Positions 1-5,574 of a stretch of 5,574 nt of DNA are shown here, piece after piece. The notes under the pieces are model-generated. The model made no database searches. It saw nothing but the letters and a program-made list of their open reading frames with translations, and had not been told where the DNA came from. The DNA comes from Candidatus Hadarchaeales archaeon (lineage in GTDB: Archaea; Hadarchaeota; Hadarchaeia; Hadarchaeales; WYZ-LMO6): the NCBI GenBank assembly GCA_038736355.1, contig JAVYML010000004.1, forward strand, positions 1 through 5,574, written 5' to 3'. A program made the translations under genes and the position numbers. How positions within the stretch are numbered: position 1 is the first letter of the stretch; the number at the start of each line of letters is the position of its first letter.

Positions 1-1
1 G

Positions 2-901
2 AGGATGAGGGGAACGAACGAACCCGGAGGCTTCCCCGACGGTTACATCTGCGACTTCATGCAGGCGGAAAGGGATCTCCCGGCCAGGAGGTTCCTGGAG
101 GTAGCCCAGGAGGATGAGGAGGAGGCCAAAAAGTACCTGAGGGCCTTGAACGAGGGAGTGGGAGGAATAGCGGCGGTGATAGACAACTCCATTTGGTTGG
201 GTTTCTACATGAGTGGAGGTATAGGTTTCTCCAACACCGTGGCTTCAGCCGCCTTGGCGGGTAACGTGATAGAATCCTTCTCCGATGAGCTGGTGGAGCT
301 CATCCACCGATACACCATGGGTGTGAGAAAGGCACCCCCTGAGTGGGATGTTGTGAAGTTCATGGTGAACACCATTATCCAATACACCATGGAAAGCTAT
401 GAGAAGTTCCCCACGTTGGCAGAATTCCATTGGGGAGGTGCCCACAGGGTTTCCGTTATAGGTTCCATAGCTGCGTCTACTGCAAGCATCATCACAGGCA
501 GTTCCACGATGGGATTGATGGCAGCTCACTACTCCATCGCCCATGTGATGAAAGAAGGCTGGCTCAGAACGGGATGGGCGGGACAAGAAATCCAAGACCA
601 TATAGGTCTTCCCTATCTGTGCAGCTTCAGGCCGGAGGAGGGAAACCTGGCGGAGTTGAGGGGACTGAACTATCCCATGCAATCCTTCAGCGCCGCCCAC
701 GGTGCGATCAGGGCAGCAGCCGTTTATGGGGCCATGATAGGAAGGGGAAGCGCCTGGTGCCTGAGCCCCATCGTGAAGGTGGCCTTCGCCGATCCCCATC
801 TGGTTTTCGACTTCAAACATCCCAGGCTCTGTATCGCCAAGGCAGGCATAAGACAGTTCATGCCTGCGGGGGAGAGGGACCCAGTACTCCCGCCCCACTG
901 A
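2..901 (+). CDS. mcrA: Methyl/alkyl-coenzyme M reductase subunit alpha, C-terminal half (5' partial)
   Basis: Catalytic alpha subunit of an MCR-family F430 nickel enzyme, which forms or activates alkyl-CoM with coenzyme B in the cytoplasm. The reading frame is open to the left edge; the ATG at base 5 is internal. The first codons give R-M-R-G-x-NEPGG, matching RARGxNEPGG of M. marburgensis McrA, so bases 2-4 encode the Arg271 equivalent. Family landmarks (counting from the Met at base 5): IWLGxYMSGGxGF at 63-75, WGGxHR at 143-148, GQEIQD around the thioglycine-position Gly193, LRGLNYP at 218-224, KVAFADPHLVFDF near the end, and a terminal PAGER. Divergences: Tyr333 is Thr78 or Val79, Tyr444 is Ala192, Gln400 is His147 and Cys452 is Ile200. 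About 16 extra, mostly charged residues lie near 24-45. These changes point to an alkyl-CoM reductase (AcrA) rather than a methane-forming enzyme. The SCP2-like gene follows after 9 bp. Family assignment is very secure; the substrate is inferred. Confidence 0.96.
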   Translation, partial: RMRGTNEPGGFPDGYICDFMQAERDLPARRFLEVAQEDEEEAKKYLRALNEGVGGIAAVIDNSIWLGFYMSGGIGFSNTVASAALAGNVIESFSDELVELIHRYTMGVRKAPPEWDVVKFMVNTIIQYTMESYEKFPTLAEFHWGGAHRVSVIGSIAASTASIITGSSTMGLMAAHYSIAHVMKEGWLRTGWAGQEIQDHIGLPYLCSFRPEEGNLAELRGLNYPMQSFSAAHGAIRAAAVYGAMIGRGSAWCLSPIVKVAFADPHLVFDFKHPRLCIAKAGIRQFMPAGERDPVLPPH

Positions 902-910: not shown

Positions 911-1522
911 ATGAGAAAAATCCCCAAACTAGAAGAATGGTATCCCAACTTTGCAGAAGAGTTTGAAAAAACCAAGCTTCCATCCGTTATGGAAAGGGTG
1001 ACGACGGAAAAGCCGCCCCTCCCCAAGGCTTCACAACCTCGTCCGGAAGGATGGTGGAGGGAATACCCGCATTCCCTTTGGATAGTAGACCGGGGGAGGG
1101 AGCCTACAGCCTATGAGTTGCTCCATGACTTCATTATAGGAAAGGCCATGACGAGTCCTCTGGCCATCTCCATTGGAAGTACCCCTCCCTCTAGGCTCAT
1201 CCTCTTCGAAGTAAAGCATCCCACTAGAGGGATAGAATACGCAAGGATTTTCCTCAATCCCACGGATGTGATGGAGGGCTATGCGGAGGAGGAACCGGAC
1301 GTGGTGGTTAGAATAGGATACTACGATCTGGTGGCCGTTCTCTGCGGTGAACTACCCCCCTTCAATCCTTTATACGAGGGAAGGGTGGAAATCATAGGGA
1401 ATACGGTGGCAGCCATAGACCTTTTATGTGATGTGTTAGAAGCTACTAATGGTCGGGAGGCTGCTCCGGGGAGTCCCACACCCATCCCACGGCCCGTGAT
1501 GTGGCCTCTCGGACACCCGTAG
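911..1522 (+). CDS. SCP2-like domain protein encoded between mcrA and mcrB
   Basis: A 203-aa protein of unknown role. Residues 1-60 are charged and rich in Pro and Trp (EGWWREYPHSLW at 46-57) with no domain I recognise. From about 65 it resembles the SCP2 fold: a helix near 67-80, strands near 84-115 (LAISIGS, RLILFEVKH, YARIFLN), then PDVVVRIGYYDLVAVLCGEL at 129-148 followed by a Gly-Arg turn, VEIIGN at 159-164 and a terminal helix to about 179. The order 'pD-strand-xxDLxxLLxGExxPxxxxxxGxxxxxG' is characteristic of SCP2 domains, which form hydrophobic pockets for lipids, acyl-CoA or sterols. The last 25 residues are a Pro/Gly-rich tail. No signal peptide or membrane segment is seen. It is not McrC or McrD by sequence. 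A role in carrying or presenting a hydrophobic substrate, or in assembly of the enzyme, is inferred only from its place in the operon. Confidence 0.85.
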   Translation: MRKIPKLEEWYPNFAEEFEKTKLPSVMERVTTEKPPLPKASQPRPEGWWREYPHSLWIVDRGREPTAYELLHDFIIGKAMTSPLAISIGSTPPSRLILFEVKHPTRGIEYARIFLNPTDVMEGYAEEEPDVVVRIGYYDLVAVLCGELPPFNPLYEGRVEIIGNTVAAIDLLCDVLEATNGREAAPGSPTPIPRPVMWPLGHP

Positions 1523-1528
1523 GTGAGG
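1521..1528 (+). promoter_or_regulatory. Shine-Dalgarno site deciding the mcrB start
   Basis: AGGTGAGG overlaps the TAG stop (1520-1522) of the SCP2-like gene and sits two bases before the ATG at 1531. It favours 1531 over the upstream in-frame GTG at 1501, which lies inside the preceding gene and has no comparable purine-rich site. Confidence 0.7.
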
Positions 1529-1530
1529 AG

Positions 1531-2910
1531 ATGAAGGCGGAGACGAAGAGAAAGGAAACCGTGGACCTGTACGATGATCTAGGAAATTGCTTAGCCACGG
1601 ATATCCCCTTGAAGGCCCTTTCTCCCCTCTACAACCCCTACATGAGGGAAGTCCTTGACCTCTTCAAAAGGGTGGCCATTATCGATTTGGGCAAGCTCGA
1701 AACCCTGATGAAGAAAGGAATGGCCGGCTGGGAAACGGCAGTGGGACAGGATGAAAACAAGATGCCTTGGTATGGAAGGGACCTTCCGCTGGTTGACAAG
1801 GCCAAGGAGATCACGGAGAGAATAAGGGACAAGATAGAGAGGTATGGGGATGGAGAACCCCTCGTGGAGGGTGTGGGTAGATACATCATAGTAAAGGTTC
1901 CCCGCAGGATGATGGAGATTTCGGCCAGCAGGGATCCCGCCCTCACTTGGACAGCAGTAGCCCTCTGCCAGGCGGTGGCAGAAACTTTCAACATGACTCC
2001 AGAAACGGATCCAGACGGATGCAACATGTTGAAAGGGGCTGTTTTCGGAAGATATCCGCAATCTCCAGAGTTTCCTCCGGGTGGTCCAGTTTCCACCTTC
2101 CTCAAGCAAAGCAACACCGTCGACGGGCTGGGCTCGGGCTTCAAGGCCATCATGGTCAACCATCTGGTAGCTCTTTGTAACAAGAGGACCATGGATGGGG
2201 TGGCACTCGCCACTATTTTGGAGCAAGCCGCCCAGTGGGAGATGGGGAACGCTCTGGGGTGGTTTGAAAGATACCAACTCCTTGGTTCGGCTTACCAAGG
2301 CTTCAACGCCCATAATCTGGTACTCGACTTGGTGAAGGAGAACAGGGAGGGAACGATAGGGGACGTGGCTTACAGCATAGTGCGCAGGGGGATAGAGGAT
2401 GGGGTGATAAAGGTGAAGAGGACCCTACCGTCCGGTTACAAGATTTACTCCACCAACGATTATCCCCTTTGGAATGCATACACTTGTGCCGCCGTTTTGG
2501 CTGCTGTGATAGTGAATGTGGGTGCCAGCAGGGCAGCTCAAAGTGTTTCCACGGTAGTGGGATACTTCGGGGATCTCCTTTTGATGGAGACGGGTGGTCT
2601 TCCCGATCCAGATGCGGGTAGGGTGGAAGGGACGGGACAGGGTTTCGCCTTCTACACCCACTCCATTTATGGAGGAGCGGGTCCGGGTGCTTATACCCTC
2701 GACCATGTGATTCCCAGACATGGTTCTGGGTTCGTGGGTCCATGTATTGTGGCAGGCATGTGTCTGGATTCGGGTACTCAGCTCTTCTCTCCCGAAATGA
2801 CTTCCGCCAGTTACTTCAAGATAAGGGAAAGATTGCCCCTTCTCCATGAGCCCTTGAAGAAAGTGGCGGAGGCGGCGGAAAGGATAAAATCGGAGGTGAG
2901 GAGAGGGTAA
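1531..2910 (+). CDS. mcrB: Methyl/alkyl-coenzyme M reductase subunit beta
   Basis: Beta subunit of the alpha2-beta2-gamma2 MCR-family enzyme; it lines the substrate channel and helps bind coenzyme B. The start at 1531 gives 459 aa (M. marburgensis McrB is 443) and puts VDLYDDLGN at 11-19, as in other McrB N-termini. Landmarks: ALSPLYNP at 29-36, GRYPQSPEF at 173-181, ATILEQAAQWEMG at 227-239, AYQGFNAHNLVLDLVK at 254-269, WNAY at 314-317, GRVEGTGQGFAFYTHSIYGG at 363-382, DHVIPRH at 391-397 and GTQLFSPEMTS at 415-425. Tyr380 matches channel residue Tyr367, Phe374 matches Phe361 and His392 matches His379. Phe362 is replaced by Tyr375. The gene is complete without frameshifts. It is followed by mcrG after 2 bp, without the mcrD and mcrC genes found between them in methanogens. 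Assignment is secure; ACR-type function is inferred from its McrA partner. Confidence 0.97.
   Translation: MKAETKRKETVDLYDDLGNCLATDIPLKALSPLYNPYMREVLDLFKRVAIIDLGKLETLMKKGMAGWETAVGQDENKMPWYGRDLPLVDKAKEITERIRDKIERYGDGEPLVEGVGRYIIVKVPRRMMEISASRDPALTWTAVALCQAVAETFNMTPETDPDGCNMLKGAVFGRYPQSPEFPPGGPVSTFLKQSNTVDGLGSGFKAIMVNHLVALCNKRTMDGVALATILEQAAQWEMGNALGWFERYQLLGSAYQGFNAHNLVLDLVKENREGTIGDVAYSIVRRGIEDGVIKVKRTLPSGYKIYSTNDYPLWNAYTCAAVLAAVIVNVGASRAAQSVSTVVGYFGDLLLMETGGLPDPDAGRVEGTGQGFAFYTHSIYGGAGPGAYTLDHVIPRHGSGFVGPCIVAGMCLDSGTQLFSPEMTSASYFKIRERLPLLHEPLKKVAEAAERIKSEVRRG
2892..2903 (+). promoter_or_regulatory. Shine-Dalgarno region for mcrG inside the mcrB 3' end
   Basis: GGAGGTGAGGAG encodes the last residues of McrB and lies about nine bases before the mcrG ATG at 2913. 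It is the strongest match to an archaeal ribosome binding site in the window and implies coupled translation of beta and gamma subunits. Confidence 0.65.
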
Positions 2911-2912
2911 AA

Positions 2913-3698
2913 ATGGCAAAGACCAAATACGAGCCCCAAATCTATCCCGGAAAGGACGAGACTTCTGAAAGGAGGAGAAAACTCTGGGACAAGAGAAGGA
3001 AGTTGGCGAAATACCGCGAGATCTCCGATGACGATATCACGCGCCTGCTGGGTCATAGACCCGTGGGAGCCCTTTATCCGAGTGTGCATCCCCCTCTCGA
3101 AGAACTCATCGAGCCATACGATCCCATCAAGAACATCGTGGTCCCCACTCCCGGGGCTAGGGCTGGGGATAGGATAAGATTTGTACAGTTCGCGGACAGT
3201 TTCTGGCATCCGCCGATCGCACCCTATGGCAGGCTGAGGCTCTACTTCAACAGGTTGAGGGGAATAGATGTGGTGGCTTACAGTGGGAGGTGCATCTTGG
3301 AGATGAGGGAAAGGGACTTGGAGGCGGCGATGAAAATGCTTTTGGAGACCGAAATCTTTAACCCGGCTAGAACGGCCCTGAAGGGGATTACCATTCATGG
3401 TCACTCCCTCAGATTGGACGAGGATGGGTTGATGTTCGATGCCAGGAGGAGGTACATCTTGGACAAGGAAAGTGGAGAGGTGGTTTACATCAAGGATCAG
3501 ATGGGAAGGGTGCTCGATAACCCGGTTCCCGTGGGCAGACCCCTTTCCGAAGAAGAATGTAGGAAGCTCGATCTGGCTTATACTTGGGATACTCATCCCT
3601 TCAAGTCCAGAACGGAAGTTTTGGAAATCATTTCAAGGGCAGCCAAACTTAGGGTCATAGCGGGATTCAATCCAGAACTCCTCACAGAGGACATGTAG
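2913..3698 (+). CDS. mcrG: Methyl/alkyl-coenzyme M reductase subunit gamma
   Basis: Gamma subunit of the MCR-family enzyme, 261 aa against about 249 in M. marburgensis. Landmarks: YPGKDETSERRRKLWD at 11-26, LREISDED-like motif YREISDDDI at 34-42, LLGHRPVGALYPSVHPPLEE at 45-64, GARAGDRIRFVQFADS at 81-96, YSGRCILEMRERDLE at 123-137, HGHSLRLDEDGLMFD at 162-176 and the C-terminal GFNPE. Arg126 matches Arg120, which contacts coenzyme M. His162 and His164 match the HGH histidines near F430. Gln121 next to the catalytic arginine is Cys127 here. There is a short C-terminal extension past GFNPE. The gene is complete and follows mcrB after 2 bp; the unknown 523-aa gene starts 8 bp after its stop. Identity is certain. 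Confidence 0.97.
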   Translation: MAKTKYEPQIYPGKDETSERRRKLWDKRRKLAKYREISDDDITRLLGHRPVGALYPSVHPPLEELIEPYDPIKNIVVPTPGARAGDRIRFVQFADSFWHPPIAPYGRLRLYFNRLRGIDVVAYSGRCILEMRERDLEAAMKMLLETEIFNPARTALKGITIHGHSLRLDEDGLMFDARRRYILDKESGEVVYIKDQMGRVLDNPVPVGRPLSEEECRKLDLAYTWDTHPFKSRTEVLEIISRAAKLRVIAGFNPELLTEDM

Positions 3699-3703
3699 GT
3701 GTG
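3697..3703 (+). promoter_or_regulatory. Shine-Dalgarno site deciding the start of the 523-aa gene
   Basis: AGGTGTG overlaps the mcrG stop codon TAG (3696-3698) and lies three bases before the ATG at 3707. The longer run AGGTGTGATC resembles the consensus GGAGGTGATC. An in-frame GTG at 3701 falls inside this site, so 3707 is preferred. Confidence 0.6.
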
Positions 3704-3706
3704 ATC

Positions 3707-5278
3707 ATGAGCAGGCACCTAGAAGGTGTTAGCAGAGTACTGAGTCCTGAAGCTTTTGAGGATTTCAAGAAAAAAGTTAGTGGAACGGTACTGGAAATAA
3801 GGGAAAAACAGGCAGAAGTCTACAGGGATACTTACCCGCCGGGTTATGAGCACATAGCCCCAGATGGCATGGCCACCGAACCTTGGATGCTCAACTGGAT
3901 TAAGGAAAGGGGAGGGATAACCATGGAGGAGTATGACAAGTTGATTTATGAGGAATTCGTAGAGTGGGCTTATCGAGTTATCCATGCCATTGAGGTTTGC
4001 AAGAAAGCGGTGGCTGAGAAACCTCCCGTTTCAGAGCTCATCAAAGCCAAGTGGCTTTGCCACCTCAGCCATCCCCCCGCCTACATGGTGAGGCCGGACC
4101 TAGGTTTCTCCACCACCCAGATGCTCTATGGGAAATATGCAACCACCATGTGGTGCCATGTGGATTGGTGGAGAGGAGAATTCGTTTGGTTCCAAGGATA
4201 TCACAATGAGGATGGGGTACCGGTACAGCACTGGATCATAGGAATGACAAAGGAAATCGTACAGCATTTCGATGAAGAGGATAGACAAAAGCTCCTTACC
4301 CCCAGCGAATTCATGGCCGTTCCTTCCGATGTCACGGCACCGCTCGAACGCAGACACCTGCGTACTGGTATAAAACTCAAGGAAATTCCAAAGAAATCTC
4401 CCTATGATTTGATAGAATGGCTCCGGATGGCTAGGGACATCATCAAGGACCTGAGGGAAGAGATCTTCCCCAAGTGGACTCATGCCACTCTTTACATCTC
4501 CACTTCTCCTGGCAACATGGGTATTGCTTCCCAACACGCCTTCTGGACTTCACACTTTTGGGGCCTAGTTTGGATGGCCATGAACGCCACTAGATTGTTC
4601 GGTATCCCCATGATGTTCTACACCTATGAACCCCTTCCCCCCATCCTAAACACCCTTTTGGCCCTACCCTCCGAGCTTTGGGTTAGGAGACTCGATGAAC
4701 TTTTCACCACGGGACCGAAGGGTTTGGTATGTGATGCTATCAACAAGGTCATCACTCCTGAGAAGAAAACTCCCATGCTCCATCAGATGAGGGAACTCTA
4801 CCTCAAAGGAAAGGCGTTCAAAGGGTGGGCCATACCCTACGATGAAGGCATACCCCCACCCAAGGCCTTCCTCACCGCTCTCCCTGCCCCAGTTTATAGA
4901 GAGGCGAACATAAGGGATCTCATCGCCAATCCTGATAAGTTGCCCAAGGAGTATTGGGAGTTGTTGGAATCGGAGGGAGGAGTAGATAGGAAGACGGGGA
5001 GGGTTCCTCCCTACAATGAAGTACCGAGACTGAAGTATCTTTTTGATCCAACCATCGAATGGCTGAAGCCCAGCGATTTCCCATCCATAGATTGGAAGGA
5101 AGGACAGGTTTGGCCCTTGGACATGACGAGGGAGAAGATGCAGATCATGGTGGAAGAAGGGTATGATGGTTCTGGAGAAAACATCCTGCATTACAGCTGC
5201 TTGGCGGATAGGAAGATGGGTCAGGAAGGAAAATTGATACTCCTGGGAACTACTCCTTACAAGCTCCCGGTAGAGTAA
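3707..5278 (+). CDS. Unrecognised 523-aa Trp-rich protein of the mcr/acr operon; possibly URO-D/CoM-methyltransferase-like
   Basis: I do not recognise this protein with confidence. It is predicted soluble, with no signal peptide or clear membrane helix. It holds about 20 tryptophans, clustered at 149-161 (WCHVDWWRGEFVW) and 280-289, and Cys/His groups at 118-122 (CHLSH) and 150-151. Residues 279-345 (AFWTSHFWGLVW, then RLFGIPMMFYTYE, then LALPSELWVRRLDELF) and 373-405 (GWAIPYDEGIPPPKA followed by EANIRDLI) recall the last strands of uroporphyrinogen decarboxylase-type TIM barrels: 'FwxxxxxxxxxxxxxxgipxxxxxE', 'LxxLP' and 'GIPxxAxxEN'. That family includes the methylcobamide:CoM methyltransferases MtaA and MtbA. 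The zinc motif HxCG is not visible, and the C-terminal 120 residues are extra, so the resemblance is tentative. It is the last gene of the cluster, 8 bp after mcrG, which implies co-expression with the reductase. Handling of alkyl-CoM after alkane activation would fit but is inference. Confidence 0.9.
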   Translation: MSRHLEGVSRVLSPEAFEDFKKKVSGTVLEIREKQAEVYRDTYPPGYEHIAPDGMATEPWMLNWIKERGGITMEEYDKLIYEEFVEWAYRVIHAIEVCKKAVAEKPPVSELIKAKWLCHLSHPPAYMVRPDLGFSTTQMLYGKYATTMWCHVDWWRGEFVWFQGYHNEDGVPVQHWIIGMTKEIVQHFDEEDRQKLLTPSEFMAVPSDVTAPLERRHLRTGIKLKEIPKKSPYDLIEWLRMARDIIKDLREEIFPKWTHATLYISTSPGNMGIASQHAFWTSHFWGLVWMAMNATRLFGIPMMFYTYEPLPPILNTLLALPSELWVRRLDELFTTGPKGLVCDAINKVITPEKKTPMLHQMRELYLKGKAFKGWAIPYDEGIPPPKAFLTALPAPVYREANIRDLIANPDKLPKEYWELLESEGGVDRKTGRVPPYNEVPRLKYLFDPTIEWLKPSDFPSIDWKEGQVWPLDMTREKMQIMVEEGYDGSGENILHYSCLADRKMGQEGKLILLGTTPYKLPVE

Positions 5279-5312: not shown

Positions 5313-5574
5313 GTGGAGAGAAGAAAGGGGCTGGACGAAAAAGCCGGCCAGCTTGAAGCTAGGGAAAGAGAATATATCCGCGAATTGTACGCTCTTTCCA
5401 AAAAATACCTTGAGGTAGAAAAGGAAAGACCACTTTATTCCATCATGCAAAGAACCTTTGGTGCCGATCCCTTTGCCCTCCAAGATTCCCAGATGTACAA
5501 GAGGGGAGGTTACAGGCAGTCAAAGCGCAAGCAGGAGTTCGCCAGGTTGGGAAGACAGGTGGCCATAGAGAGGG
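5313..5574 (+). CDS. mcrA: N-terminus of a second methyl/alkyl-coenzyme M reductase subunit alpha (3' partial)
   Basis: The frame is open from an in-frame stop at 5289-5291 to the right edge and gives 87 residues from GTG 5313. Residues 62-87 read YKRGGYRQSKRKQEFARLGR, then QVAIER, and line up with the McrA N-terminus YTLGGWKQSERKTEFVNAGK, then EVAAKR, of M. marburgensis; the upstream LYSIMQRTFG matches LFINALKKKF. Relative to that protein there are roughly 35-40 extra residues, a charged and probably helical stretch (EAREREYIRELYALSKKYLE). The GTG is chosen because a TATA-like box lies about 28 bases upstream. The internal ATG at 5445 would cut into the aligned region and has no ribosome site. 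TTG 5385 is another possibility. This is a different mcrA copy from the one at the left edge and probably begins the next acr operon. It shares no overlap with that first fragment, so their relatedness cannot be judged here. Confidence 0.85.
   Translation, partial: MERRKGLDEKAGQLEAREREYIRELYALSKKYLEVEKERPLYSIMQRTFGADPFALQDSQMYKRGGYRQSKRKQEFARLGRQVAIER

Follow-up and report, generated by a model that had tools for sequence, protein, structure and literature searches.

An apparently undescribed archaeal protein family that accompanies the long AcrA clade, and a tentative role for it in alkyl-CoM conversion

Genes of the acr locus

The window analysed here is an entire contig of 5574 bp from a Hadarchaeales genome of 1.27 Mb that is 95.8% complete. 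Its close relatives are the MAGs Hadesarchaea WYZ-LMO6 and S4B3_HD70. The latter appears to be Ca. Cerberiarchaeum oleivorans, the organism of a hexadecane culture at 70 degrees (hexadecane70; PMC10811742), because its sample code fits the suffix HD70 borne by the companion MAGs of that organism (PMC10811742). The window holds acr genes at both ends and between them an SCP2-like gene and a gene termed ORF5 (Table 1).

Table 1. Features of the window, in positions of the 5574-bp contig
Feature	Position	Strand	Evidence
acrA1, C-terminal half, cut by contig start	2..901	+	MCR_alpha PF02249, E=1e-24; score weak, like that of the ACR type
SCP2-like protein, 203 aa, adjoining acrA	911..1522	+	SCP2, E=0.12
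acrB	1501..2910	+	MCR_beta PF02241, E=4e-96
acrG	2913..3698	+	MCR_gamma PF02240, E=2e-90
ORF5, 523 aa, member of the ACR-linked family	3707..5278	+	no library match; purifying selection; confident predicted model
Conserved alpha/beta core of ORF5, residues 103-347, common to long and short forms	4013..4747	+	27-member alignment; HHalign of short vs long forms, 242 columns
C-terminal cassette of ORF5, residues 420-523, long forms only	4964..5275	+	DNA identity of 99-100% between non-acr paralogs within one genome
acrA2, N-terminal start, cut by contig end	5313..5574	+	87 aa, weak MCR_alpha_N match; BLASTN 77-83% to acrA of relatives

For acrB, the ATG at 1531 is a more likely start than the GTG at 1501. 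ORF5 runs for 523 codons from the ATG at 3707 to its stop at 5278, with an alternative GTG at 3701 that would give 525 aa. An earlier, sequence-only reading of this DNA had placed the gene 8 bp after mcrG, in agreement with the acrG stop at 3698. It had also taken ORF5 to be the last gene of the operon and to be as large as McrA, and both points need correction: a second acrA begins 34 bp downstream, at 5313, and full AcrA has ~607 aa. The complete order is seen on one contig of the relative G002 and reads acrA1-SCP2-acrB-acrG-ORF5-acrA2-SCP2'. The SCP2-like protein next to acrA1, whose homologs adjoining other acrA genes match SCP2 at up to E=2e-8, is a probable carrier of hydrophobic ligands. 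Compared with three orthologs, ORF5 has a dN of 0.043-0.113 and a dS from 1.4 to saturated; it is a real gene and, because of this strong purifying selection, not a chance open reading frame.

Hadarchaeota genomes carry at least two acrA copies with one acrB/acrG set in view (window 1-901 and 5313-5574; L025:13056-14879; L034), acrA1 and acrA2 lying on either side of acrBG-ORF5. The published description of Ca. Cerberiarchaeum oleivorans counted a single complete Acr operon (PMC10811742).

Family architecture and searches for relatives

ORF5 belongs to a family with 6-7 members in the window's own genome. Short forms of ~370-440 aa and long forms of ~490-580 aa constitute one homologous family (HHalign P 99.7%, E 2e-26, 242 columns), and their common core includes D153, E158, H166 (codon 4202-4204), E168, R215, R216, D248, E252 and R328. 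In an alignment of 27 members, H166 is invariant (27/27), and E86, W87, R90, P123-P124, D153, E158, E168, G170, E191, R215/R216, D248, R250, E252 and R328 are likewise conserved in at least 23. Some paralogs may be non-catalytic, since residues such as H217 and R250 are lost in some and D153 is replaced by N in four.

The C-terminal cassette has a history of its own. Between non-acr paralogs within one Hadarchaeota genome, the DNA of residues 420-523 is 92-100% identical and the remainder 41-67%; the comparison covered ~104 C-terminal codons of three paralogs in G000 (where assembled) and two in G003 (L023:8490-13243, L024:17848-19251, L030:8204-9787, L031:5062-6630). The segment differs by 17-33% between species, and the acr-operon copy has not been homogenised (73-76% in G000). 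This pattern is concerted evolution confined to one segment, presumably by gene conversion, and it suggests a common docking or oligomerisation segment of the non-acr copies. Contig breaks at ORF5-family genes agree with near-identical cassettes.

Library searches were employed to find known relatives. ORF5 gave no match in Pfam or NCBIfam at E<=1, none among PDB sequences at E<=10 and nothing below E 0.1 in PHROGs (phage families), and a profile of the wider family found no PDB relative. The earlier remark that ORF5 resembles no MCR accessory protein is borne out, curated NCBIfam and Pfam models of McrC/McrD and of other MCR accessory or marker proteins included. Like McrC and McrD of mcrBDCGA operons, ORF5 is an extra mcr/acr-operon gene outside the catalytic AcrABG core; unlike them, with which it has no sequence match, it is larger and multi-copy, also occurs away from the operon and does not accompany canonical mcr. 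No paper naming the family was found in the open literature searched for it or for an acr-operon unknown; the Ca. Alkanophaga paper depicts genes next to acr that carry no annotation and does not discuss them. Judged by its sequence, ORF5 is a member of an undescribed archaeal protein family, relative to Pfam, NCBIfam, PHROGs, the PDB and the open literature.

A structural model was predicted with AlphaFold2 from 14 sequences (pLDDT 89.1, pTM 0.90). Using Foldseek against the PDB, the best hits had E 0.44 for the full model and 0.15 for the core and were scattered actin-like and RNase H-like chains; a viral structure library returned nothing. In VIA-align, the top rows for the core were LCP (LytR-CpsA-Psr) proteins, which bind polyprenyl lipids and have a lipid-binding phosphotransferase fold (Z 3.5-4.0 over 116-127 residues, 5-11% identity), followed by alkylsulfatase SCP2-like domains and SCP2 (Z 2.7-3.2), all with Z <=4 and so within the range expected from common arrangements. 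The likeness of the predicted core to LCP and SCP2 is a weak lead, below the level at which kinship is demonstrated. HHalign found no profile similarity between ORF5 and SCP2 (P 0.2-0.4%) and no relation to the SCP2 neighbours, the 156-aa neighbour or the ~123-aa neighbours. Corrinoid, radical-SAM, Fe-S and nucleotide motifs are absent from the conserved positions of the 27-member alignment, and the family shows neither a known cofactor motif nor the catalytic motif of any established class of enzymes.

The sequence-only reading had seen a resemblance of parts of ORF5 to the URO-D barrel and had proposed a divergent URO-D/CoM methyltransferase. The operon position speaks for such an enzyme, as does an earlier proposal that methyltransferases carry out alkyl transfer (cited in PMC10322722), and URO-D/MtaA-type CoM methyltransferases (PF01208) are similar in length to the short forms. 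However, neither ORF5 nor 7 relatives matched PF01208 at E<=1, and 18 URO-D proteins compared with the family gave HHalign P of 0.3% and 0.2%, where short against long forms, the positive control, gave 99.7%. The zinc site of MtaA-type enzymes (His-x-Cys...Cys) is absent, and no Cys is conserved in >=70% of the 27 members. The strand order of the predicted model is also not that of a TIM-barrel (beta/alpha)8: by DSSP, the strands (144-153, 158-168, 171-180, 261-267, 341-345, 467-470, 510-513 and 516-519) form an antiparallel three-strand run plus a few further strands, with no alternating beta/alpha repeats. A PF01208 gene was found in neither G000 nor G003, the two long-AcrA Hadarchaeota genomes searched. 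With an unrelated predicted fold, the outcome that the sequence-only reading had itself named as refuting, and no search returning URO-D, this identity is largely refuted, and we regard it as extremely improbable.

Association with one long-AcrA clade

In a tree of 24 McrA/AcrA sequences, the 14 with ORF5 in the genome or locus and the 10 without it are split at one branch (100/99). The ORF5-associated AcrA proteins have 593-645 aa, the others 552-571 aa. In G712, G747 and G775, ORF5 adjoins the long acrA and is absent from the short operons of the same genome, and it is absent beside canonical Mcr and short Acr. The ORF5 tree places the long forms in Hadarchaeota, Bathyarchaeota BA2 and the family f138, and the short forms in f161, f154, f146, f158 and f164. 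The AcrA tree has the same long/short split and the same order of families inside the short half; the two trees mirror each other, and the ORF5 family and AcrA co-evolve. The window and G931, which lie in opposite halves of the tree, both have ORF5 adjacent to acrG, at a distance of 0-8 bp.

The long AcrA clade includes Ca. Cerberiarchaeum and a Methanoliparia-like family; judging from the AcrA pattern, f138 would correspond to Methanoliparia and f154 to Alkanophaga. Long-chain alkanes are activated by the AcrA clade to which Ca. Methanoliparum and Hadarchaea belong, and Ca. Alkanophaga has a related third acrA that is highly expressed and separate from acrB/acrG (PMC10811742, PMC10322722).

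The ORF5 family is present in Hadarchaeota (the Ca. Cerberiarchaeum family), Bathyarchaeota BA2, the Methanoliparia-like family and other Halobacteriota. In a survey of relatives, all four genomes of the window's family were positive (G001 being scored as ACR-bearing from acr neighbours on its contigs, with the mcrA C-terminus unassembled) and none of 390 others, 69 of which have mcrA. When 84,980 species genomes were scanned with two patterns specific to the long form, the family was found only in the Ca. Cerberiarchaeum family and BA2. Among 256 Bathyarchaeia genomes, the family and AcrA each occur once, in the same genome. Long-type AcrA is present in 10/392 Halobacteriota genomes, and all 10 have the family. 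In a draw of 167 Halobacteriota genomes searched with the family profile, 8 were positive, namely all 7 long-AcrA genomes and G677, a fragmented assembly from a genus-mate of ACR bearers (Fisher p 1e-11 for co-occurrence, kinship ignored). G667, with three mcrA-type genes of the short kind, has no family member. Among the relatives, Bathyarchaeia and Halobacteriota surveyed here, the ORF5 family accompanied the long AcrA clade and no other. The sequence-only reading had named homologs mainly in genomes without MCR/ACR genes as a refutation; the opposite was found, the family accompanying long AcrA. MAG contamination could be a source of noise, yet many assemblies from three phyla show the same link.

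The BA2 locus (L052:531-18251) holds an ORF5-SCP2-acrA cluster amid genes that we take to be methanogenesis-marker-like, a gene for what would be an AtwA-like ABC protein, and a pair with a FAD domain that we read as a GlcD/GlcF-type oxidase.

Pathway neighbours and candidate role

Genes expected directly downstream of alkyl-CoM recur beside non-acr paralogs of ORF5. An AMP-forming acyl-CoA ligase gene overlaps an ORF5 paralog by 4 bp in G000, is its direct neighbour in G003 and G002, and lies nearby in G837 and G653. An NDP-forming ligase is found in the same small clusters as ORF5 paralogs in G003, G001, G002, G747 and G775. The lineages in which an acyl-CoA ligase overlaps or adjoins ORF5 paralogs are Hadarchaeota, the Methanoliparia-like family, f154 and f161. 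AOR genes lie within a few genes of an ORF5-family gene in G000, G001, G003, G653 and G775, and in a tree of 39 AORs, drawn from 12 ACR genomes only, all five of these fall in one clade of nine (100/100). The clade is completed by two AORs from G784, one from G001 and one from BA2, where it is encoded 19 kb off on the same contig. In most loci, acrA or ORF5 is bordered by SCP2-like genes. Overall, gene context, as context and not proof, points to a pathway role after Acr over a role confined to Acr.

The conversion of alkyl-CoM to acyl-CoA in archaea has been called unknown, and the candidates put forward so far, AOR alone or methyltransferases, have been doubted (PMC10811742, PMC10322722, PMC9118554). 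The sequence-only reading had nominated ORF5 for this step; its link to alkane metabolism stands, tighter and broader than one operon, and its methyltransferase identity falls. We tentatively favour, at somewhat less than an even chance, that the ORF5 family works only with the long-AcrA clade as a dedicated alkyl-CoM handler, probably an enzyme acting between alkyl-CoM and the AOR and ligase steps. Beside the observed protein, clade specificity, co-evolution and gene context, we infer a binding, a chemistry and an order of steps. ORF5 would bind the alkyl-CoM made by Acr and would perform, or form part of, the release of CoM, passing on the carbon chain as an aldehyde-level or alcohol-level product; the co-encoded tungsten aldehyde:ferredoxin oxidoreductase and an AMP- or NDP-forming acyl-CoA ligase would then yield acyl-CoA. 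For Ca. Ethanoperedens and Ca. Cerberiarchaeum, tungsten AOR has itself been suggested to oxidise alkyl-CoM and so addresses the same gap, but it is a different protein, before or together with which ORF5 would act. The stronger version, that a new enzyme family cleaves long-chain alkyl-CoM at its C-S bond and, together with a specific AOR and acyl-CoA ligase, forms the missing route to acyl-CoA in long-AcrA archaea, is possible but doubtful.

In the predicted model, D153, E158, H166 and E168 lie on or beside the first antiparallel strands, and D248 and E252 on the long helix that follows. Either a metal site or a general acid/base site is plausible: the catalytic group would probably be the acid/base cluster D153-E158-H166-E168 with D248/E252, possibly with a metal there, and the conserved arginines R215, R216 and R328 could anchor the sulfonate. 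Where a genome has several paralogs, these would serve different chain lengths or attachment positions.

Gene context alone does not separate an enzyme from a carrier or an assembly factor, and neither an AOR nor a ligase is in view near some of the copies adjoining acr, which counts against an enzyme. ORF5 might instead be a non-catalytic accessory of long-clade Acr with a McrC/McrD-like role, as an extra subunit, substrate gate, assembly factor or F430-delivery protein. Its place in most lineages, where it immediately follows acrG or precedes acrA, the mirrored trees and the need of long AcrA to admit bulky alkanes, a problem not faced by other Acr/Mcr, all fit such an accessory. It is nonetheless unlikely: the sole copy of the Methanoliparia-like G653 lies by AOR and ligase, ~16 kb from acrBGA, most paralogs of G000 and G003 are not beside acr, and 6-7 diverged paralogs are more than a stoichiometric subunit would require. 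Substrate-specific enzymes fit better than one Acr subunit because that many paralogs are found in a 1.27-Mb genome.

That ORF5 binds or carries alkyl-CoM or long alkyl chains in concert with SCP2-like proteins seems quite improbable. The SCP2-like genes adjoining acrA in most long-clade loci and the order of the weak fold matches, LCP lipid binders and then SCP2-type proteins, would suit it; against it stand the Z values expected from common arrangements, the lack of profile similarity to SCP2, and several conserved acid/base residues that exceed the needs of a carrier. Longer alkanes are activated mainly at inner carbons and a rearrangement is thought necessary (PMC10322722, PMC9118554), and the family tracks the AcrA clade to which the long-chain enzymes belong, so that ORF5 could also be an isomerase that turns 2-alkyl-CoM into 1-alkyl-CoM, shifting CoM from an inner position to carbon 1. 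Such a rearrangement would be expected to need a cobalamin or radical-SAM motif or a conserved cysteine, none of which the family has, and this role is very improbable.

A family that tracks exactly one AcrA clade in three phyla, beside the expected downstream enzymes, provides a short gene list for bench tests. Alongside acrA, it may become a second marker gene for the archaeal oxidation of long-chain alkanes, and it is a good candidate for a step by which archaea that attack oil alkanes without oxygen turn the activated alkane into a fatty acid.

Several further features of these loci were observed. The distinct AOR clade accompanies the ORF5 family in three phyla (L025:6400-8343, L032:6204-8174, L121:4261-6156, L115:10403-12347, L193:638-2584); the G775 member (L115:10403-12347) is in two overlapping frames of 140 and 534 aa, owing to a frameshift or sequencing error. 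SCP2-like genes directly beside long-clade acrA (window 911-1522; L052:11374-11865; L110:7077-7616; L107:5062-5532; L117:6919-7515) possibly encode a carrier for alkanes or alkyl-CoM. In short-form genomes, a second, more distant ORF5-family member (E 1e-25 to 1e-34) lies away from acr (L206:482-1513, L207:1445-2572, L208:6640-7761, L209:458-1525), in two cases near an NDP-forming CoA ligase. Proteins of ~120-180 aa with several spaced cysteines adjoin short-form ORF5 genes, often between ORF5 and acrA (L110:13070-13834, L113:7961-8506, L116:5425-5814, L117:4554-4916, L118:4183-4578); those scanned have no Pfam match, and by eye they are zinc-ribbon-like.
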